A stretch of DNA of 35,424 nucleotides from an uncultured Silvanigrella sp. (lineage in GTDB: Bacteria > Bdellovibrionota_B > Oligoflexia > Silvanigrellales > Silvanigrellaceae): assembly GCA_903933385.1 (NCBI GenBank), contig CAIZJW010000294.1, forward strand, positions 1 through 35,424, given 5' to 3'. Below, piece after piece: positions 17,712 to 30,135 of the stretch. Each line of letters starts with the position of its first letter. The first letter of the stretch is position 1. The notes below the pieces were generated by a model, which worked only from the letters and a program-made list of their open reading frames with translations, made no database searches and had not been told where the DNA came from. The position numbers and the translations under genes were made by a program.

Positions 17712-17752
17712 CAATAAAGAGTTTGCTGACCCCTTCTGGATTGAGTTCATCT

Positions 17753-19240
17753 ATGACTAATATCGCACCAAAGACACTTGAATTTCTCTCCTTGGTTTCT
17801 TCTGCCGCACTTGCCAATCCCTTCAGTGAAGCTCGAGATCTCTTCGATACTCAAATTGTCCAAAACTATCTTGGCCAAAAAGCAAATCGCGAGAACACGG
17901 CAGAACTTGTAGCTCGAGAGGCTCAGCGAGTGGTTCAAGAAATTATTCACCCTCTCGGACTCAAAAAGTTTGAGTCACCTCCGAAAATCAAGCAAATTGT
18001 CGCAGACGCTGCTCTTTTTGCTGTGTTCCACAAATTTATAGATGAATTCGATAAATATATAGAGCTACAAAATTCAACCTCAGGAAAGTGTTTGCCTCTG
18101 CCATTCGCAGAGAAAATTCTCACGGATCTGAAACAATTAAACCTCGATTTTCCAAACGCACATGTCGTTGCTCTCTTCTTTCAAATGCGCCGAGCTTTTT
18201 TCTTTATCAATCGCTATGTGAGCGGCCAATCAGCGCCCGTGCGATCGCTTCGAGAACGTCTCTGGCGCAGCTTGTTCACACATGATTTGCGCGCCTACTT
18301 AAAGACGCTTCATCGAAACATGGAATCTTTTCCAATTCTTTTACTCGGAGAAACGGGTGTAGGAAAAAGCCAAGCCGCAGCTGCATTGGGCCGCAGCGCT
18401 TATATTCCATTCGACGAGAAAAGCGGGCAATTTGAGGCAAGTTTTCTCGACATCTATCTTTCAGCCAACATTTCAGAATACCCCGAGACACTCGTCGAGA
18501 GTGAATTATTCGGCCACAAAAAAGGTTCATTCACCGGCGCTGTTGAAAATTATGCTGGTTTATTGGGTCGCACCCACTTGAATGGCGTGTTGTTTCTTGA
18601 TGAAATTGGCGAACTATCATTACCAGTTCAGGTAAAACTTCTCCGTGTTCTACAAGAGCGCATGTATTCACCCGTGGGTAGCCATGAGCAAAGGCGCTTT
18701 TCGGGTCGATTGGTGTCGGCCACAAATGCGAACATGTTCAACCGAATTGCCCAAGGGGAATTTCGCGCCGATCTGTATTATAGATTGGCCTCTGACATCA
18801 TAGAAATCCCCTCACTTCGAGAACGTTTTGCCGCTGCTCCCGCTGAAAAGCGTCTGCTGACCGAGCGCATTCTGAATCGCCTTTTGGGAGAAACATCACC
18901 AGAGCAAATTGAAAACAGTCTCGAGCTTGTTTTGCAGAGCATACCTGAAAACTATAATTGGCCCGGAAATTTGCGAGAGTTTGAGCAGCGAGTTCGGAGT
19001 GTCATTCTTCACGGGCCCGATTCAATTGCGATGACCCCACTTACAGGGCGCTCACAAAATGCAGACCACGATGACACACTCAAAACCGCATGGGAATCCG
19101 TGCGGTGGACGGCTGATGAATTGTTGGCCCACTATGCTCGCAGTGCTTACGCCAAATTGGGGTCGTTCGAAAAAGTGGCTCAACGCCTTGAGCTCGATTG
19201 GCGGACTGTGAAAAAATGGGTGCACGTGGAAAAAATGTAG
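17753..19240 (+). CDS. Sigma-54-dependent transcriptional activator with a novel N-terminal domain
   Basis: A 495-residue bacterial enhancer-binding protein. The AAA+ domain (about 190-420) has Walker A GETGVGKS (199-206), the sigma-54 contact loop as GSFTGA (258-263; Ser for the usual Ala), Walker B GVLFLDEIGE (279-284 core), the arginine-finger region FRADLYYRL and sensor II YNWPGNLREFEQ. The C-terminal LGSFEKVAQRLELDWRTVKKWV is a Fis-like helix-turn-helix. The 190-residue N-terminal region is all-helical and is not a receiver, GAF, PAS or V4R domain that I recognise, so the input signal is unknown. A TTG at 17723 is an alternative start. A sigma-54-like promoter lies 75 bp past the stop. 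Confidence 0.88.
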   Translation: MTNIAPKTLEFLSLVSSAALANPFSEARDLFDTQIVQNYLGQKANRENTAELVAREAQRVVQEIIHPLGLKKFESPPKIKQIVADAALFAVFHKFIDEFDKYIELQNSTSGKCLPLPFAEKILTDLKQLNLDFPNAHVVALFFQMRRAFFFINRYVSGQSAPVRSLRERLWRSLFTHDLRAYLKTLHRNMESFPILLLGETGVGKSQAAAALGRSAYIPFDEKSGQFEASFLDIYLSANISEYPETLVESELFGHKKGSFTGAVENYAGLLGRTHLNGVLFLDEIGELSLPVQVKLLRVLQERMYSPVGSHEQRRFSGRLVSATNANMFNRIAQGEFRADLYYRLASDIIEIPSLRERFAAAPAEKRLLTERILNRLLGETSPEQIENSLELVLQSIPENYNWPGNLREFEQRVRSVILHGPDSIAMTPLTGRSQNADHDDTLKTAWESVRWTADELLAHYARSAYAKLGSFEKVAQRLELDWRTVKKWVHVEKM

Positions 19241-20139: not shown

Positions 20140-20201
20140 CCCACTCAGGCTTCTTAAAGAGTGCTCGCGAGTAGAGTCAGACATTCAGAATTGCCTGTAC
20201 A

Positions 20202-20355: not shown

Positions 20356-21522
20356 ATGTCGAGATTGTCTCAACAATCGGGTTTCTCACTCGTCGAGCTT
20401 ATGATCGGCGCAGCCATTCTTGTCGCTGTTTTCGGCGGATCGTTCATGTTGCTTCAAAAAACCCGAGCCGGCGTGAATGCAAGAAACTCCTCTGGGCCAC
20501 ATCTCTATTTCGAGTCGTTCGCATCGAGTCGTTTGAAACTCTATTTTTCGAAGCTCATGCAATGGACAACCCATATGGGCGCTTCCCCCGGGCAGTCAGC
20601 AAACGTAGACAATTTTTGCCAGGACACTAAGAACTTTGCATATGCATCAGGGGCGTTAGATTTTGGTTTTGCCCCGAGAGCGACCGCACAGCGAACCTTG
20701 GGTGCGGATATGCGCATGTCACTCAGTACACTTGAATTCGTTCAAGTGAGCAATCGGCCTTTGACGGGTCGAGTTGCCGAGAACGGCTTTCCTTGGGGAG
20801 CAATGGTTCCCTTCAGCAACCGAACAGGTGCAATTTCCGGAATTGATACCGTTAATTTTAATCTCGACGCCCTGTGCCGTGGAGATAAGCTCCCGACATC
20901 TGGAATAGGCGCGGAGATGTGTGCTTGGGTGGACGTTTGCTCTGGCCAAGAGGGAAACAGATCTCCCAATCCTGTGCCAAACCCAAATCCCACGGCCGAT
21001 GGCGTGCCAATTTTGGCCTACACTTCGGTGGGTGGTGGAGATGTCATGGGTTTGGATGGGAGAAACAATTTTCGCATGTGCTTTGCATTTGTTGGCAATT
21101 TATTTTCGCGTGTGGGTGATTTTACGAACGCTGCAGCTGCGTCTTCAACAGGGCTCAACGCAGTTGATAACCCTGCAGTGCTTGGCTTGGCAGTTGCCAC
21201 CGCACAATTTACCAACACAAGCACGGGAGCAACTATCACGTGCGATCAAGCAAGGTATGAAATGAATCGAAGCCTGAAAGTGAGGCTCGACCTCTATACG
21301 ACACTCAACGCAGACAAATCATTTCGCAGCGGACTTCAACAACATTTTCGGACTCGTAAGGAAATTACGAGTGAAAAGCTTGGGGTTGCAATTCCGAATT
21401 GCGACAACCCATCACGCGACGCGCCCATTGATGCAGCCGGCAACAGTGTTTGTATAGCAGATCCTACGTGGATTTATAGATGCGCGAACACCTGTGCAGA
21501 TCCTATTCAAGTCGGAAATTAA
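20356..21522 (+). CDS. PilW/GspJ-like prepilin protein
   Basis: A 388-residue protein with a class III prepilin signal: basic leader MSRLSQQSG, peptidase site G9/F10 and Glu14 at mature +5, then FSLVELMIGAAILVAVFGGS as the pilin helix. The soluble part has several Cys (CQDTK, LCRG, MCAWVDVC, TCDQ, NCDN, RCANTC) that probably form disulfides, and an Asn-Pro-rich linker (about residues 266-275). Length suggests a minor pilin of the PilW/GspJ type and not a major subunit. ATG 20356 has AGGGTGG upstream; the frame is open further upstream, but that stretch contains the terminator. It is followed after 25 bp by the Hint protein. Confidence 0.82.
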   Translation: MSRLSQQSGFSLVELMIGAAILVAVFGGSFMLLQKTRAGVNARNSSGPHLYFESFASSRLKLYFSKLMQWTTHMGASPGQSANVDNFCQDTKNFAYASGALDFGFAPRATAQRTLGADMRMSLSTLEFVQVSNRPLTGRVAENGFPWGAMVPFSNRTGAISGIDTVNFNLDALCRGDKLPTSGIGAEMCAWVDVCSGQEGNRSPNPVPNPNPTADGVPILAYTSVGGGDVMGLDGRNNFRMCFAFVGNLFSRVGDFTNAAAASSTGLNAVDNPAVLGLAVATAQFTNTSTGATITCDQARYEMNRSLKVRLDLYTTLNADKSFRSGLQQHFRTRKEITSEKLGVAIPNCDNPSRDAPIDAAGNSVCIADPTWIYRCANTCADPIQVGN

Positions 21523-21547
21523 AAATTTTCTGAAAAGGAGAATTGTG

Positions 21548-23944
21548 ATGAAATGCCAATTGAACCGAAAAAGAAATGAGAGAGGATCAAGCACAACGAC
21601 AGTGCTTATCTTCGCTTCAGCAATTGCGGTGTCGTCGGGTGTGCTCATTTCGCAGTTACGGGATAACAAAAAGTCGGCAAAACAAGAAACCGAAGCCGAC
21701 ATCGAACGTCGCGTGAATGAAGCAGCATTGCAGTCAGTCACTCAACTGATCACGAACGGCTCTCTTTACTTCAACTCAGCGTGTGGAATTGCAGAACCAC
21801 AGATCAACGGTAGCGTCGCTGGCTACGAGAAACCAGGGGGCTGCGGAACAGTTCGGCCCAACTTTGCGCTTTCGTGCAACGGTGGCCCAGTTGCATGGAG
21901 ATACGAGCGCCGCGATCCTTCGCCCACAGTTGTTTGCAAGGCGGCGAAATGTGAAACTGTGGACGTTTGTGTTCCCATCACTCGCAAAGATGCTGCGGGA
22001 AAGCCTATCCAAGAAAAAGTACAAGTGACAGTTACATTTGTAGAATATAAGCCCGAAAAAACCGCAAATGGCAGTGGTTTGGCTGTTGAGCGAAGCTTTG
22101 GATATTTAAGGGCACAGCGCGGCGGTCGCACGACCACTGGACAATTTTTCTCAACGCTCAACGCAAAGGTCAACTTCGGTGCTAAGCAAGATGCGAACAA
22201 AGGCCTTATTGGCAAGCACGGAGGTGCTGACACTTGTTTTTATATGAGGCCAGCGACAGTCGCTCAAGATTCTGGAAATTTGGGTTTTGCCGCGCGCGCC
22301 AATACAGGCAAGTATTCTTTGACTCAGCTCGAACCTCGCCCCGATGGAAAATTGGCCGACGAATTCGAGCGTCCGTTTTACCCAGATAAATTAGCGGCAA
22401 CTGTGACAGATGCCGACTACGCCGTGCTCTCAACGTATCGAGATAACCTTATTAACACCTACTATAAAAGCGCAGAGAAATATCGCGGCGCAAGACCCGC
22501 CAACGAAAAGTGGAGCACAAACGCAAACCGCTGGCAACCCGCTTCCCGCGGCCGCTACGCTAGCCAGAATCAAGTCATTACAAACCATCTTTATTCGGGA
22601 ACCCGTGCGAACGAATACTTTGTTGGCGTGATGCCGGAAAAGGGGGCTGAGGGAGGTCCTGATTTTCAATATTTTCTGACCGGATCGAAATCGAGACCAA
22701 CTAAATGGAATTCTGCAAGCACAGGAGACTATAGGAGTGGCTGCGGATCAGCAGGCACCAATGCAGACTTTTGCACAAAGGTTTACATTCCCTACAAGGA
22801 ACACAAAGCGACCTTGAATAGAAAGTGCATCAAAGAGCCTGTTTCTCTCGAATCGGTTGCAGCCGATTCCGAAGAGGGGGCGAATAATCCACTGCCACAA
22901 GTTTTTTATGCCGACCGCGCAGTGCAGGTGAGCTGCAGCGCGACATGGGTCGATAAAGTTCAAGCACTTCTGGCCGAGGAGAAGATCGCGCTCGATGGTC
23001 GCGCAGCTCAAGACAAAGTCGGACGAGAGACAACAGCCGAAATGGCTATTGCAGCACTCGAAGTTGATGACGATTTTCTCGACGGCAAAGGCAAGTGGGC
23101 AGTGAATCCGAGCGGTAAAGGAGGCATTCATCCTCTGCGCGCTGCCTACGATTCTTTTGTATCTGAGACTATGACGGGAATTGGGTACCAAGCAGTCGAT
23201 AGGTACACAGTAAAATATGTCAGTGACAAAGACGTTGCAAATTGGGAAACTCAAACAACAAAAAATGCCGACGGAACAGAGACTTCAACACGTGTCAGAG
23301 TGAGTGTGACTCCCGGAAAGAAGCGAGATTTCTCAATCTATAAAATCGAGAACTTAGGAAGCCCAATTGTTGCAAACCGTCACACATCAATGACATGTGC
23401 GTATTTTTCATACTTCAACGCAGAAACACCCACGAAGTGTAGTTATTCGTACACAACCAAGGACGAAGCTGGATTTGTTTGCCGAAACAATGATGGATGT
23501 TTCGACGAAACAACACTCATTCGAATGTCAGATGGCAGCGACAGACTCATCACTGAGCTCAAAATGGGAGAGTTCGTTTACAATCCTGTCACCAAAATGC
23601 CAGCGCGTATTACAAAACTCACCATTGGGCCGGAACTCAAACCCCTCATCAATGTGAGCGTTGGAGGTCGTGTTGTGAAGGTCACAGATACGCATCCCTT
23701 CATGACTCGCCGAGGATGGATTCAAGCTAAAAATCTTAAGACAAGCGATCAAGTTCTCAGCGGTAGCAAGGTTTATCTGCCGGTCACTGCTGTTGAGCTC
23801 GGCGCTTCCGGCCGAACCGTGGCAAACTTGGCTCTCGAAGGGCCCGCGAGTCAAGCCGAACTTCACTATGTCTTGGCCAATGGCGTTGTCACAGGTGATC
23901 TCGTCATTCAAAACATGCTTGAACTTAAAGCCTCGAGCAAGTGA
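21548..23944 (+). CDS. Large PilX/GspK-like protein with C-terminal Hint (Hedgehog/intein) domain
   Basis: A 798-residue protein. The N-terminus MKCQLNRKRNERG followed by a hydrophobic helix (SSTTTVLIFASAIAVSSG) looks like a prepilin-type anchor, but mature +5 is Thr (residue 18) instead of Glu, as in PilX/GspK-type tip pilins. Residues 60-640 are a Cys-containing extracellular region with no family I recognise. From Cys651 to the end is a Hint domain: CFDETTLIRMSDGS with a nucleophile-type Cys, LKMGEFVYNP, TxxH as TDTH (713-716) in VTDTHPF, GWIQAKNLKTSDQVL, and VANLALEG...HYVLANGVVTGD. The intein C-terminal His-Asn is replaced (TGD). AAGGAG precedes ATG 21548. It is flanked on both sides by prepilin genes in one operon. 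Confidence 0.82.
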   Translation: MKCQLNRKRNERGSSTTTVLIFASAIAVSSGVLISQLRDNKKSAKQETEADIERRVNEAALQSVTQLITNGSLYFNSACGIAEPQINGSVAGYEKPGGCGTVRPNFALSCNGGPVAWRYERRDPSPTVVCKAAKCETVDVCVPITRKDAAGKPIQEKVQVTVTFVEYKPEKTANGSGLAVERSFGYLRAQRGGRTTTGQFFSTLNAKVNFGAKQDANKGLIGKHGGADTCFYMRPATVAQDSGNLGFAARANTGKYSLTQLEPRPDGKLADEFERPFYPDKLAATVTDADYAVLSTYRDNLINTYYKSAEKYRGARPANEKWSTNANRWQPASRGRYASQNQVITNHLYSGTRANEYFVGVMPEKGAEGGPDFQYFLTGSKSRPTKWNSASTGDYRSGCGSAGTNADFCTKVYIPYKEHKATLNRKCIKEPVSLESVAADSEEGANNPLPQVFYADRAVQVSCSATWVDKVQALLAEEKIALDGRAAQDKVGRETTAEMAIAALEVDDDFLDGKGKWAVNPSGKGGIHPLRAAYDSFVSETMTGIGYQAVDRYTVKYVSDKDVANWETQTTKNADGTETSTRVRVSVTPGKKRDFSIYKIENLGSPIVANRHTSMTCAYFSYFNAETPTKCSYSYTTKDEAGFVCRNNDGCFDETTLIRMSDGSDRLITELKMGEFVYNPVTKMPARITKLTIGPELKPLINVSVGGRVVKVTDTHPFMTRRGWIQAKNLKTSDQVLSGSKVYLPVTAVELGASGRTVANLALEGPASQAELHYVLANGVVTGDLVIQNMLELKASSK

Positions 23945-23950
23945 ATTAGA

Positions 23951-24889
23951 ATGAAAGTCACACCCAGCAATAAAAAACGCGCAAGCCACCAGGGTGGTTT
24001 CACCCTGGTGGAACTCATGCTGAGTGTTTCCTTTCTCTTGGTCATCGCGACTGCTGGAAGTTCTCTCCTGCGAGACTACATGGCCACAGCGAAAACTCTA
24101 CGCATTGCAGGTGATGCAAACACAGAGTTAATGAGAGTGCTGCGTGATTTGCGAGGCTCCTTTCAAACCGCTCAGCCGCGCGGAAGTTTAGAACGTGGCT
24201 GCGTTTTGCAATACAATGGTGTTGCCAACGGCAGAGCTAACCTGAACAACTACAGGTGTAATTTCACTGCTGCCGGCCAGGGTGGTGGCCCTCTGCGCAC
24301 CGATGGAGTTGGTTTCGCAATTAATGCGGCAGGCAACCCAGGAACTGCTTTCGTCAACGCCTGCGAAGCAATTCCTGCGGGTGTAAATTTGCCAACCGGG
24401 CGTGGAGGCTTCCTTGTGCCGCCCATTTCTCCAGATGCTTTGAATAATTGGGGTGCAGCGAACCAAGTGTGTCCTGCTGCATGCGCTGCAGGACAACGCC
24501 CTGTGATTAAATTTCTAACTTCGGATGCAAACGGCGCGAATCCTCGGGAAATTGTGCAAAGGCAAATTCCCAAAATAATAGCTTCATCAAGCGACTTAAA
24601 TCTCTGGGGTGGAGTTATTTGCGCATCGTATTTTCGCGACACCGTAAGAAGACTTCAAGGCCTTTTTGGAGAGAACACGGGCGCCTTTGCGCCAAACTAT
24701 TTGAGTGTCACAACATTCATTGCACGCGGTCGTTTCGATGTTTTGCCGCCACTCGATCCCACTGCCCCACCCGACGCACCTCGTCGGCTCAGCAATTATA
24801 TTTGGGTTCATGGAGGAATGATCTTGGAATTCAATGATGCCCAGGAGATGAGCACATATAAATGTACCGCTGGGGCGCTTGGCTGCTAG
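23951..24889 (+). CDS. Type IV prepilin-like protein (PilW/GspJ-type)
   Basis: A 312-residue protein with a basic leader and prepilin peptidase site HQGG16/F17, Glu21 at mature +5, and FTLVELMLSVSFLLVIATAGSSLL as the pilin helix. The exposed domain contains Cys pairs (GCVLQ/YRC, NACEA, QVCPAACAAG, ICASYF, YKCTAGALGC) suited to disulfides. It starts six bases after the Hint protein stop with only a weak ribosome site, so translation is probably coupled to it. It would be a minor pilin of the same tip complex. No PilY1, PilV or pilus motor gene is in the window. Confidence 0.8.
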   Translation: MKVTPSNKKRASHQGGFTLVELMLSVSFLLVIATAGSSLLRDYMATAKTLRIAGDANTELMRVLRDLRGSFQTAQPRGSLERGCVLQYNGVANGRANLNNYRCNFTAAGQGGGPLRTDGVGFAINAAGNPGTAFVNACEAIPAGVNLPTGRGGFLVPPISPDALNNWGAANQVCPAACAAGQRPVIKFLTSDANGANPREIVQRQIPKIIASSSDLNLWGGVICASYFRDTVRRLQGLFGENTGAFAPNYLSVTTFIARGRFDVLPPLDPTAPPDAPRRLSNYIWVHGGMILEFNDAQEMSTYKCTAGALGC

Positions 24890-25466: not shown

Positions 25467-28295
25467 CTACCACAGACCACCGGGTTTGTTCGACTCCCGC
25501 CAAGCTCTTGCGGCCTGCTTTACAGACGGGATATCGGCCTCTTTTTCGAGTGTCTTAAAGAGTTCTTCAAGCTCCTGTTTTGACACACTTCCTTCCCTCG
25601 CCCAGCGCGTTCCCAAGGCCAGCCAAGCTTCCTGTTCCTTCAACGCTCCCTGAGATTTCAGCCAGGGCCACAAAATGTGTCTATCACGAGCGAGTGTGGG
25701 TTGGCTCTGTGCCAGCCGCAATGCTTCCTCGGCCGAGCGTTGAGCACAAATTGAGGAGTTTCCTGGGGATTTGAGGATTTCCATCCACCGTTCGCTTGGC
25801 ACTGCCAAAACAAAGGTATCCCACTCTCGTCGGCTCAGAGTCGAAGATTCAAGTAAAAAACGATCACAGAGTTCTTTGCGTTGCAAAGTCCGATCTGGAC
25901 GGCGGAGAACTTCTGAACGCATGCTGCGGCGTAAAAGTTTTTTATTCTTCTCGGGCTGCTCCAAATCCCATTGCATCACGCGCACAGATGCCAATTGAGG
26001 CCAGAAATCTGTGTCGTCTATCGATTGAGACTGCTTCTTTTCGAGACTCTGAACGTGTGACCAAAGGTCATCTTGTCCGCTCCTGCGCAATTCTGAAAAG
26101 AGCGCTTCAGCACGCTTATCATTTGGCGACACCGTCATTTCCAGCGCCAAACGCGTGAGTCGGTTGGGTGATGATTCCTTCATATTTGACGCTAATTTGC
26201 GCGAAGGCTTGATCTTTTGTTGTCGCAAAATTTCTGGCGCCAACTTCGCAAGCATTTCGTTCGAAGCAAAGAGAGCTGCACAACGTAACAGGCGTTCCTG
26301 ATCGTCTTTGCTCCATTTTAACATCGGTAGAAATTTTCCACTGTTCTTCTTTAATGCGACAATCTTCACTTCATTCGCTTTAAAGAAATCGATTGCATCG
26401 CCGCATTGCTTGTAGGCTAACAAGTATGGTCCGAGAGCACTTTGCAGCGTAACTTTTCTCTCTTCAAGAAATTTTAAATATGAACTTTGTGGAAATTTCT
26501 TTGAAAATTCTTCGATGAGATCGAGTTGAACAGCTGCATCGTCGGGAAGAGTTTTGAGACTATTTCCTGCCATATTGCCAGCATCATTCACAAGCCCGTT
26601 GAGATGACAGGCACGAATCTGTTCAATTTCTCCTTCTTCCATCTTTCCAAACTGCTCTTTGAGGGCCTGATATTCCAGATACCGAACCTTAGGACCTGTT
26701 TGTCCGGCAGTGATGCAAAACAAACGACGGCGAGCAATCAATCCGGCAGGATGTTTCTCCTGACGTCGATTTAATTCTTCATAAAGAAGTGTGGCTTTTT
26801 CAGGACCCTCACTCAAATGAGCAATTTCAGCAAGGCGAAGACGAGCCCAAGGGCCGTAGACTTTGTCGCCCGCTGCAAGGAGAAATTTTTCAAATGCTTT
26901 TTTAGCAATTGTGAGATCGCCTGCCCAAAATGCGTTCTCACCGCCACCAACAAGAAAATAGGGATTCTGCTGATACCATTCAACATCAGCAAAAGCTTCG
27001 GCAAACGCGTGAAAACGGCGGGCGTAATTCGGATAGCCCAGATCATCATAAATATTTGCAGTTTGTGCAAAGCCTATTGTTTTAAACGCAGGTGTTTCCG
27101 AGCTTAGAATGACCTTTGACGACTCCTTGAGGGCCATCAGCGGATCCTCAGCAATGAATTGTGCATTTACCTTGAGCATCTGAATGATCGTTTTGAGTTG
27201 ATGTGGTGTGCGAGGCCACATCATAATCGGGTGAGTGCTCTTCACTCCGGGGGGAGTGGTGAAATTGAGTTCCTGATTCTTTTGTGTCACAAATCTCTTG
27301 TCGAGTCGGGCATAAACCTCTTCGAATTTCTGACTTGCCTCATAGACTCTCGTCCAGTTCTTAGACTTCACACTCAGCGATGCCACATTAAACAGAACCG
27401 GCAGAGACATTGTCCTTACAAAGCGAATCATATCCATCGAGCGAGGAGATAATTTTGGGGGCGCGAGCCGCGGCGGATAAATTCCGTCTTCTGAAAAGAT
27501 CGCTGGCTCAGCAAGCGCAGATTTAAAGATTGTGTCATCAACCGTGTTGTCGATGTTGGTCAGATAAACTGAAAGTTCAGTGCCTCCTAAACTATCCCAG
27601 AATGAACCCTGTGCGGGCCCGTAGCGCGCCAAAGGCATTTTGAGTTCAGCTGCTGCCTGCAGATCAAGGAAGCCAGAAATAATTGCGACCGTTGTGCGTT
27701 CGAGTGTTCCGCGTGGGAGTGATTTTTTATCTTTTTGCAGCTTCTCACGAAGAGCAAGTGCTGCTTCAGTTCGCCCCAAAGTCCACAATCGAACCACTTC
27801 GTTGAGTGCGCGGACAAACTCAGAGTCTCCGTTAATATAGGGAACCTCGCGCAGGCGCAGCATCGGAACTTCGATGGTTAACTCAGGACGAGTGAAATGA
27901 CGGGTTGGGCCGAGAGTCAGAGCCTTCATTCCCTGTTGATCGGCACTCCACCAACCTGGCGGCGCGATCAATGGGTCACGCATCGTCATCACGGCAGGCA
28001 ATCCATAGCTGTCGTTGATTCGCTTGCGGAGCGCAGCATCTGCATAATCGGGTTGCTGCCTTAAACCAGGAAGATCGTCCAGCTTGAACAAACTCAAACG
28101 CAACCAATCACGCATGAGTAATTCATCCGCCGGTGAACGCTTTTTAATATTCAAGTTGTCAGGACGAGGAATTTCGGTGGGCTCAGGGGTGGGTTCGGGT
28201 GTAGGTTCGGGCGGCTTACTTGCAGCCGCAGACGCCACGAGAGTGACCAGCGCAGCAACCGAAATTGCAGCGAGGCCACTCTTGAATCGATTCAC
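25467..28295 (-). CDS. Large periplasmic helical-repeat (TPR-like) protein, hypothetical
   Basis: A 942-residue protein with a signal peptide (RFKSGLAAISVAALVTLVASAAA) followed by a Pro-Glu-Pro-Thr repeat linker at about residues 26-41. The rest is almost entirely helical with TPR-like patterns, for example AKKAFEKFLLAAGDKVYGPWARLRLAEIAHLSEGPEKA, which would suit a scaffold in the periplasm (the family itself is not recognised). GTG 28295 is chosen because it overlaps the protease stop as GTGA and gives a clean signal peptide; an earlier GTG at 28322 is possible. It is translationally coupled to the metalloprotease upstream and followed by the small Lys-rich gene. Confidence 0.72.
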   Translation of the reverse strand: MNRFKSGLAAISVAALVTLVASAAASKPPEPTPEPTPEPTEIPRPDNLNIKKRSPADELLMRDWLRLSLFKLDDLPGLRQQPDYADAALRKRINDSYGLPAVMTMRDPLIAPPGWWSADQQGMKALTLGPTRHFTRPELTIEVPMLRLREVPYINGDSEFVRALNEVVRLWTLGRTEAALALREKLQKDKKSLPRGTLERTTVAIISGFLDLQAAAELKMPLARYGPAQGSFWDSLGGTELSVYLTNIDNTVDDTIFKSALAEPAIFSEDGIYPPRLAPPKLSPRSMDMIRFVRTMSLPVLFNVASLSVKSKNWTRVYEASQKFEEVYARLDKRFVTQKNQELNFTTPPGVKSTHPIMMWPRTPHQLKTIIQMLKVNAQFIAEDPLMALKESSKVILSSETPAFKTIGFAQTANIYDDLGYPNYARRFHAFAEAFADVEWYQQNPYFLVGGGENAFWAGDLTIAKKAFEKFLLAAGDKVYGPWARLRLAEIAHLSEGPEKATLLYEELNRRQEKHPAGLIARRRLFCITAGQTGPKVRYLEYQALKEQFGKMEEGEIEQIRACHLNGLVNDAGNMAGNSLKTLPDDAAVQLDLIEEFSKKFPQSSYLKFLEERKVTLQSALGPYLLAYKQCGDAIDFFKANEVKIVALKKNSGKFLPMLKWSKDDQERLLRCAALFASNEMLAKLAPEILRQQKIKPSRKLASNMKESSPNRLTRLALEMTVSPNDKRAEALFSELRRSGQDDLWSHVQSLEKKQSQSIDDTDFWPQLASVRVMQWDLEQPEKNKKLLRRSMRSEVLRRPDRTLQRKELCDRFLLESSTLSRREWDTFVLAVPSERWMEILKSPGNSSICAQRSAEEALRLAQSQPTLARDRHILWPWLKSQGALKEQEAWLALGTRWAREGSVSKQELEELFKTLEKEADIPSVKQAARAWRESNKPGGLW
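28177..28212. repeat. Three 12-bp tandem repeats in the Pro-Thr linker
   Basis: Three imperfect units of the type GTGGGTTCGGGT run in tandem inside the helical-repeat gene and encode its Pro-Glu-Pro-Thr linker. The unit is four codons, so slippage would alter linker length without breaking the frame. Confidence 0.6.
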
Positions 28296-30028
28296 TGGTT
28301 GCGAGCTTTGCGAGATGCCCACTTGGTTGATCCATCACACTGGTTTTTGGCTGCCGTCACACCCCAGCTGATCAAGGTACCCACGTCGCGCGCAGCAACA
28401 TCTTTTACCTTGAGCTTCCAGGTTCCACTCAGTTTCTCTACTCGCGAGTTTACCGCAATAGATTCATGAATGCCTGTGTCAGAACGACCGTCATTTTTGC
28501 TTGAACGACGTCCTTTGAGGGAGTTCGCATCCGGATAGACCCGTAATTCTTTGCCGTCTGGAGAAACAAGGCTCACACGCAAATCACGCACATAGGGATG
28601 ATCAATGTCCAAACGCACGCTCAATGAGCTTGCTGACCCTTGGTCTTGGCTTTCAAGGGCCGATTCAATTCCCTTAGGATCGTTGTCTGGAATTGAGGCC
28701 TGCGACGACACCGTTCCTTGTTCAGCTTGTTCGACACGCCCCAGCTGCAATTCACGCGCCAGATCCGCAGTGCCCTGATCGCTTGAAGCTTTCAGAGACA
28801 GTCCAACTTTCTCACCGCACAATGCATTTTGTGCAACTTTGAAAACAACGGGCGATTTTGCCTCTGTGGTTTCTCCTGCATTCATATCCGAAAACGAAGT
28901 TGAGTTTTCGATAATTTGAACCAGGCTCGAAACACTGCTCAAGACACCTTGAATGTTTGTTGTCGACTTCACAGCTTTGTTTGCAAGCTTGAAATAGGCT
29001 TCAACCGTTTCGCCTGGTTCGATGTAGCCGTTACCGTTGCCAATTTGCTCTTGATACCGAACATCAGAATACTGAATTGCAAGGAATTCGAGTTTGGGTT
29101 TGAACCAACACAACGGACGCACACCCGCATTGTACCCGGCAGCGGTCATGCACGATTGGTTGGAAGCAGAAAGCTCTGCGTTCTGACTCGTCTGACCACC
29201 TGAGGAACTACGCCCTGGAATTTGATTTTTGTCGAAGGTCACAGGACAAAGTGCACCACTGAAATATGTATCAAGCCGGCACTGAGCTTCAGGGTGAGCT
29301 GTGTAGGTTGTTGCAACTTTGCGTTGATCAGGGGTATCGAAACGCGGCAAATTTGTGCTCGAACGCAGCGCGCCTAGGAGTGTCGCGAGACTATGACCTG
29401 CCGCCGCAGTGCGGTAACACAGATCTTGATCTTCAACCTTGCTCCATGCTGCATCGCACTTCTTCTTTTCAAAATCACCCACCAAAGTGCGGAATTGAGC
29501 ATTTTCGTTTGTTTGGCCGCGCCAAATTTCACGTGCGCAAGACTGGGTTGCAAAATAGTCGGATTGCCCTTCAGAGGCTGCCCAATCGGTATCACCATAG
29601 AAAGGGAAGCCTGCCAAATGATGACCGAGCTCATGACAAACAACCATTGCAAAGCCATCTGGTGTCACTTCAGGACGGCGAGCCAAACCGCCATACATAT
29701 TGATGATCCAGTTGTTACCGCTTTGTTGTGCGCTCGCATTCACCGTTGTATCGGTCCAAAGATTATTCGATGTGAGACGCGCACCGCGTGCCGTAACGAT
29801 GGGCCGATACAAATTCATGATGTTGTTGATGATGGTGTTGAACTCTTGCTCGCTCATATTAGCAATAGAATTGATGTTGTCCTGCAGATGCAGACTGTTT
29901 GGCGGAAGTATGGAGCCATGCGCGCCATGTGCAAAAAAAGTTCCGGCAATCATGCAAGCAGAAATGCCCCATTGACGCCATCCTGCTGCATTCTTAACGC
30001 CGCTCCTAGCCCACTTCGTTGCCACCAT
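28292..30028 (-). CDS. Secreted HExxH metalloprotease with C-terminal P-domain
   Basis: A 578-residue protein with a hydrophobic N-terminal segment (about 20-38). The zinc site is HELGHH (132-137), and 16 residues on, E153 in SEGQSD forms an ExxxD motif like the third ligand of gluzincins. Next comes a region with several Cys (ATQSC, KKCDAAW, DQDLC), then a beta-rich adhesive-type module (NGNGYIEPGETVEAYF). The end is a proprotein-convertase P-domain (Pfam PF01483): IPDNDPKG, LDIDHPYVRDLRVSLVSPDG, SGTWKLKVKDVAARDVGTL. P-domains are common on exported proteases of predatory and myxobacterial-type bacteria. ATG 30028 follows AAGGAGGATG. The stop overlaps the next gene. Confidence 0.85.
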   Translation of the reverse strand: MVATKWARSGVKNAAGWRQWGISACMIAGTFFAHGAHGSILPPNSLHLQDNINSIANMSEQEFNTIINNIMNLYRPIVTARGARLTSNNLWTDTTVNASAQQSGNNWIINMYGGLARRPEVTPDGFAMVVCHELGHHLAGFPFYGDTDWAASEGQSDYFATQSCAREIWRGQTNENAQFRTLVGDFEKKKCDAAWSKVEDQDLCYRTAAAGHSLATLLGALRSSTNLPRFDTPDQRKVATTYTAHPEAQCRLDTYFSGALCPVTFDKNQIPGRSSSGGQTSQNAELSASNQSCMTAAGYNAGVRPLCWFKPKLEFLAIQYSDVRYQEQIGNGNGYIEPGETVEAYFKLANKAVKSTTNIQGVLSSVSSLVQIIENSTSFSDMNAGETTEAKSPVVFKVAQNALCGEKVGLSLKASSDQGTADLARELQLGRVEQAEQGTVSSQASIPDNDPKGIESALESQDQGSASSLSVRLDIDHPYVRDLRVSLVSPDGKELRVYPDANSLKGRRSSKNDGRSDTGIHESIAVNSRVEKLSGTWKLKVKDVAARDVGTLISWGVTAAKNQCDGSTKWASRKARNQ

Positions 30029-30091
30029 CTTGTCATCCTCCTTGGGTGCTTGTGCACCTCGCAAGATGATAATCTGGCCAGCTGGTCGACC

Positions 30092-30115
30092 GTGTGTGAC
30101 GTTTCCGTCACACAC
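30092..30115. repeat. Perfect 24-bp dyad, GNRA-type hairpin or operator
   Basis: GTGTGTGACG-TTTC-CGTCACACAC is a flawless 10-bp inverted repeat between flbD and the metalloprotease. Read on the minus strand the loop is GAAA, a stable tetraloop. There is no T-run, so it is either a structured leader/processing element or an operator for the protease; it lies 64 bp before that gene's ATG. TGTGA and TCACA half-sites are present but eight apart, not the six of CRP. Confidence 0.5.
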
Positions 30116-30135
30116 ATCCAAAGTTTGACGATCTG

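Follow-up and report, generated by a model that had tools for sequence, protein, structure and literature searches.

In inteins and Hedgehog proteins, a first-position Cys (Cys1) acts with a TxxH motif to form a thioester at the upstream junction; in the Hedgehog Hog domain this junction reads Gly-Cys-Phe, as it does at Gly650-Cys651-Phe652 of the protein analysed here. B-type BIL domains possess the intein motifs apart from the C-terminal one, and N-terminal self-cleavage has been reported for them (Amitai 2003; Dassa 2004; reviewed in PMC7765530). A new BIL type comes from Bdellovibrio bacteriovorus (Dori-Bachash 2009, cited in PMC2797640), placing Hint in Bdellovibrio-type predators; it is possibly the same domain type as the one described below, or a related one. 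The chemistry class of BIL domains is already known, and the setting in a pilin seems not to have been described, the literature searched giving no account of Hint-bearing pilins; the main doubt as to novelty is that the 2009 Bdellovibrio study might cover the same domain type. Nor does the searchable literature appear to describe an intein-type domain that autoprocesses the tip of a type IV pilus or of a pseudopilus.

The window, i.e. the whole stretch of DNA that was analysed, measures 35,424 nt and originates from an uncultured Silvanigrella sp. (contig CAIZJW010000294.1 of GCA_903933385.1, positions 1 to 35,424, forward strand). The host is a freshwater Oligoflexia-type bacterium, with Fluviispira (Silvanigrellaceae, Oligoflexia) as nearest named isolate, and its group is related to predators whose attack requires pili. 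Its own genome encodes PilB/PilT/GspE-type ATPases, secretins and a prepilin peptidase. The genes and protein regions considered are the following:

17723..19240, plus strand: sigma-54 activator, upstream neighbour (PF00158, 148.7 bits)
20356..21522, plus strand: upstream prepilin, MSRLSQQSG/FSLVELM (PF07963, 22.2 bits, above the cut-off)
21548..23944, plus strand: coding sequence of a 798-aa prepilin-type protein with a C-terminal Hint domain (ORF translation; AGGAG at 21536-21540, before the ATG)
21548..21586, plus strand: class III (prepilin-type) leader MKCQLNRKRNERG, predicted cut after Gly13 (sequence; start type shared by most long relatives)
21587..21658, plus strand: hydrophobic start of the pilin-type helix, Thr at position 5 (sequence; AlphaFold2 helix 16-69 in a low-confidence full-length model)
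21659..23479, plus strand: large, genus-specific tip region that belongs to no known family and contains many conserved Cys (Pfam; profile of residues 1-615 matches the genus only)
23498..23941, plus strand: Hint domain, residues 651-798 (Pfam, AlphaFold2, Foldseek)
23951..24889, plus strand: downstream prepilin, SHQGG/FTLVELM (PF07963, 17.4 bits, below the cut-off of 21.2; Glu5 motif)

A preliminary description of this DNA had presented the 798-aa protein as the middle one of three prepilin-like genes, and both neighbours are indeed prepilin-like: the N_methyl score is above the cut-off upstream and, downstream, the GFTLVE motif is intact despite the sub-threshold score. For the upstream prepilin, the ATG at 20356 is a likelier start than the GTG at 20161, the longer start retained by the ORF caller. 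Only 25 bases separate the end of this gene from the start of the Hint-protein gene, which is followed by the downstream prepilin after 6 bases. The sigma-54 activator is a possible regulator. Close to the end of the prepilin cluster, a proprotein convertase P-domain protein is encoded on the minus strand (28292-30121). As for RNA elements, an Rfam scan of the window gave no match.

At the N-terminus of the 798-aa protein, the leader MKCQLNRKRNERG is followed by SSTTTVLIFASAIAVSSGVLISQL, with Thr at mature position 5 and the usual Glu absent. A polar-Gly-hydrophobic class III start, scored in the relatives by our own hydropathy rule, was found in nearly all the long members of clade P (see below) with a complete N-terminus. 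The protein had been called PilX/GspK-like, a label that holds in part: like GspK/PilX tip minor pilins, it has a class III signal without Glu5, is the largest minor pilin and adjoins two Glu5 prepilins in its operon, whereas it differs from them by its C-terminal Hint domain and by sequence family, the Pfam GspK/PilX models giving no match. The full-length AlphaFold2 model is poor (mean pLDDT of 44) and only its Hint domain is usable, so that the pilin fold of the protein remains putative. Searches with the tip-region profile (residues 1-615) returned nothing outside the genus, Hint-less versions included, and a single further, marginal fragment in the own genome. This fragment (L139, G000:C44:11535-11843; E 0.001) contains two stop codons and is possibly a remnant.

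Concerning the C-terminal part, a 148-residue Hint domain with Cys651 and T713xxH716 had been read from the ORF, and the Pfam, PDB and AlphaFold2/Foldseek results agree with that reading. PT-HINT is the best single Pfam match, scoring 25.2 bits on the full protein and 28.6 bits on the isolated domain (cut-off of 27.7), while Hint_2 reached 14-20 bits on some members, below its cut-off; a PDB sequence search matched 2lwy, a bacterial intein-like domain. AlphaFold2 predicted a confident all-beta structure from Cys651 on (mean pLDDT per block of about 83-97 for the greater part of it), and Foldseek placed the model among Hint structures, including BIL2 of Tetrahymena (E 7e-11) and 2lwy, with TM-scores of 0.89 (on target) for the gp41-1 intein and 0.75 for Hedgehog 1at0. 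As a whole, the sequence profiles are weakly supportive of the Hint assignment and the predicted fold is clear, its best match being a bacterial-type intein-like domain. The lack of a Hint fold, which the preliminary description had named as a refuting outcome, is not what the prediction gave. The ORF also bears out the earlier statement that the intein His-Asn is absent, the domain ending in TGD with no C-terminal cargo.

Compared with the described systems, A-type BIL and pretoxin Hint domains share the fold (2lwy and 6y75 being the nearest solved structures), but they end in His-Asn followed by more sequence or a toxin, whereas the window domain has Gly-Asp and no cargo. The Hedgehog Hog domain (1at0) has in common the Hint fold, the C-terminal position and the absence of a His-Asn step; in contrast, the window domain is without a sterol-recognition region and its cargo is of bacterial pilin type. 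B-type BIL domains are similar by the presence of blocks A, B and F, the absence of His-Asn and their occurrence in variable bacterial proteins. The window domain is set apart from their descriptions by its GPE and GD-x3-Q motifs, its fixed C-terminal place, the lack of a flanking domain and the fusion to a prepilin.

Of the 58 genomes that represent the phylum (phylum and class coincide in this set), 37 were matched by the Hint profile, at up to 11 places per genome, and of the 325 genomes sampled outside the phylum only 4 at E <= 1e-6. With a support of 100/98, the tree separates a short Sec-secreted clade from clade P, in which the long proteins are joined by a few lipoproteins and fragments. 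A search of related genomes for the same fusion, suggested by the preliminary description, showed that it recurs in several families, in some cases beside prepilins, the same architecture being present in a Hint clade that spans six or more families of the phylum. Glu5 prepilins are found near 16 of the 45 long members vs. none of the 34 short or other ones (Fisher p = 3e-5, relatedness ignored). Within the genus, the triad as in the window occurs in G000, G005 and one of the three G004 copies; in other families, the Hint gene has one or two prepilins, on either side. Many long relatives are devoid of prepilin neighbours, as is the case, in the sister genome, for two paralogues out of three.

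Conservation was counted over 53 P-clade rows, of which 51-52 were readable per position, for the following residues:

23480..23482, plus strand: Cys645, six residues ahead of the Hint nucleophile (an upstream Cys is common to 51/51 Cys1-keeping members)
23498..23500, plus strand: Cys651, Hint nucleophile, in Gly650-Cys651-Phe652 (Cys 51/52, Gly-1 51/52)
23627..23635, plus strand: Gly694-Pro695-Glu696 motif, subfamily signature (Glu 48/52)
23684..23695, plus strand: block B, T713-D-T-H716 (His 51/51, Thr 50/52)
23864..23866, plus strand: block F His773 (His 51/52)
23894..23899, plus strand: Gly783-Asp784, replacing the intein His-Asn (GD 51/52)

The preliminary description had made its proposed chemistry depend on a Cys conserved among homologues, and Cys1 is kept in all but one of the readable P-clade members. 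The Gln of the GD-x3-Q signature is present in 52/52 members, and His-Asn is absent from all 85 aligned sequences; judged on the alignment, Gly-Asp is a conserved replacement of His-Asn and not a product of decay. The Hint domain always occupies the extreme C-terminus, with a tail of 6-31 residues after its last motif. The lone exception in clade P, L124, has lost Cys1, Glu, the block-F His and Gly-Asp together, and such coordinated losses in a degenerate member would count toward a reading of the domain as catalytically competent. A Hint subfamily is defined in this way by GPE ... GD-x3-Q and an upstream Cys.

The same data bear on three other readings. That PT-HINT is the top Pfam match, and that Hint-bearing polymorphic toxins occur among the plasmid matches, would suit a cargo-less pretoxin-Hint remnant of a polymorphic toxin. 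This origin is so improbable, with cargo absent throughout the clade and the ending conserved instead of eroded, that we have discarded it. An origin from phages or plasmids was also rejected: phage records and viral contigs gave no match, and plasmids one weak polymorphic-toxin match for the whole protein. Secondly, Asp784 stands at the place of the terminal Asn of inteins, is conserved in 51/52 members, and a few inteins use Asp or Gln at that position, so a C-terminal cleavage via Asp784 could be imagined, which would take off the short tail whether or not the N-terminal junction is cut as well; it seems improbable, the assisting penultimate His being replaced by Gly in nearly all members. 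Thirdly, the domain might be folded but without catalysis and serve as a cap or assembly module, a view to which the loss of His-Asn everywhere in the C-terminal half and a Cys1 that may sit locked in a disulfide lend themselves. We regard it as rather unlikely, considering that Gly-1, Cys1 and both His are near-universal while the tip region is unrecognisable between families.

Across 53 members, which come from six or more families, Gly-1, Cys1 and the two His are nearly invariant, and this suggests that a pilus tip may process itself after export. The reading that we favour, with a confidence somewhat above even, is that of a minor-pilin tip protein with a catalytically competent, cargo-less Hint domain which, once exported, would form a thioester at Cys651 and be cut at Gly650/Cys651, possibly under redox control. 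One-sided autoprocessing after export is favoured on account of the known intein/Hedgehog and B-type BIL chemistry and of the pilus machinery encoded in the genome. The class III signal would direct the protein to the inner membrane, where the prepilin peptidase would cut after Gly13. Judging from the operon and the analogy with GspI-J-K, it would then join the minor prepilins encoded on its two sides in capping a type IV pilus or pseudopilus, a position in which its C-terminus would face outward. In the periplasm or outside the cell, Cys651 would attack the Gly650 carbonyl with the aid of T713xxH716, residues that are all conserved, to give the thioester. On its resolution, residues 14-650 would either be released from the Hint domain, with water taking the acyl group, or be passed to a nucleophile, and only the N-terminal junction would be resolved because the Asn chemistry is absent. 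Should this work, minor-pilin tips would undergo a step, of maturation or of attachment, for which no one has yet searched.

The second of these outcomes, in which the thioester is handed to a lipid, to an amine or hydroxyl at a surface or to a further pilin and the tip becomes covalently attached, as Hedgehog does with cholesterol, was weighed separately and is possible although unlikely. The preliminary description had also named a glycan and a prey surface as conceivable targets. The same thioester is attacked by cholesterol in Hedgehog (PMC7906309), covalent thioester adhesins exist in other bacteria (PMC4450167), those of Gram-positive pili being an analogy only, and the activation of a nucleophile could fall to the conserved Glu of GPE (48/52) and the GD near the active site. 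However, the Glu in question (Glu696, domain residue 46) is offset from Hedgehog Asp46 when counted back from the next strand, and the 6-31 residues after the last Hint motif hold no adduct-recognition region; covalent attachment is therefore a possibility and not a finding.

Returning to one-sided autoprocessing, its possible redox control concerns the Cys upstream of the nucleophile. All 51 members with Cys1 have an extra Cys at -2 to -18, the commonest positions being -2 (21 members) and -6 (11 members), and Cys are denser in the 16 residues immediately preceding Cys1 (0.096 per residue) than further upstream (0.027). A disulfide on the catalytic Cys is known to halt an intein reversibly (PMC6195587). 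In the window protein, the Cys at -6 would probably keep Cys651 under a redox lock while in the envelope, an oxidising compartment where Cys651 could also stay inactive for good. The Cys count of the mature protein is odd (15 or 17) in the window protein and four close relatives, which is consistent with, and no proof of, a free Cys651. A more speculative extension, to which we give little credence, is that the redox-locked Hint cap makes the thioester at the tip end, or hands it to Cys645, and that release on contact leads to covalent binding by the type IV pilus.

Outside the phylum, a comparable arrangement was found in a second one (G176 and its genus relatives), where two prepilin genes precede a gene for a PilX/GspK-like protein of ~1000 aa with a Hint domain. 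This domain retains His-Asn and has a Gly/Ser-rich tail. The full triad is present in three genomes (L153, 133-4120; L167, 3162-7373; L168, 1825-5947), a fourth, partial locus being truncated at the contig start, and it looks like an independent pairing of a Hint domain with a tip pilin. Domains of GD type are also carried at the C-terminus of three lipoproteins (L149, L150 and L151, ~655-1152 aa) of G246, from a phylum sampled by only two genomes, and by Sec-secreted proteins of Pseudoalteromonas. One of the latter (L141, 4567-6549), with a GD-type Hint end, has neighbours annotated as PKD, internalin and GEVED.

Among the short members, L086, L087, L083 and others are Sec-secreted proteins of ~260-330 aa in which a small Cys-rich domain precedes the Hint domain, an architecture that resembles that of Hedgehog. 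Many copies of family f12 have, instead of prepilins, a one-TM protein of about 290 aa downstream. At the loci L063, L067, L099, L058, L071, L112, L100 and L066 of this family, a protein of ~280-325 aa with one N-terminal TM is encoded downstream of the Hint gene, and the two form a recurrent two-gene unit across paralogous loci. Finally, two or three tandem Hint domains with HNKG junctions were observed in L169 (1192-3765) and L171 (3-2195).
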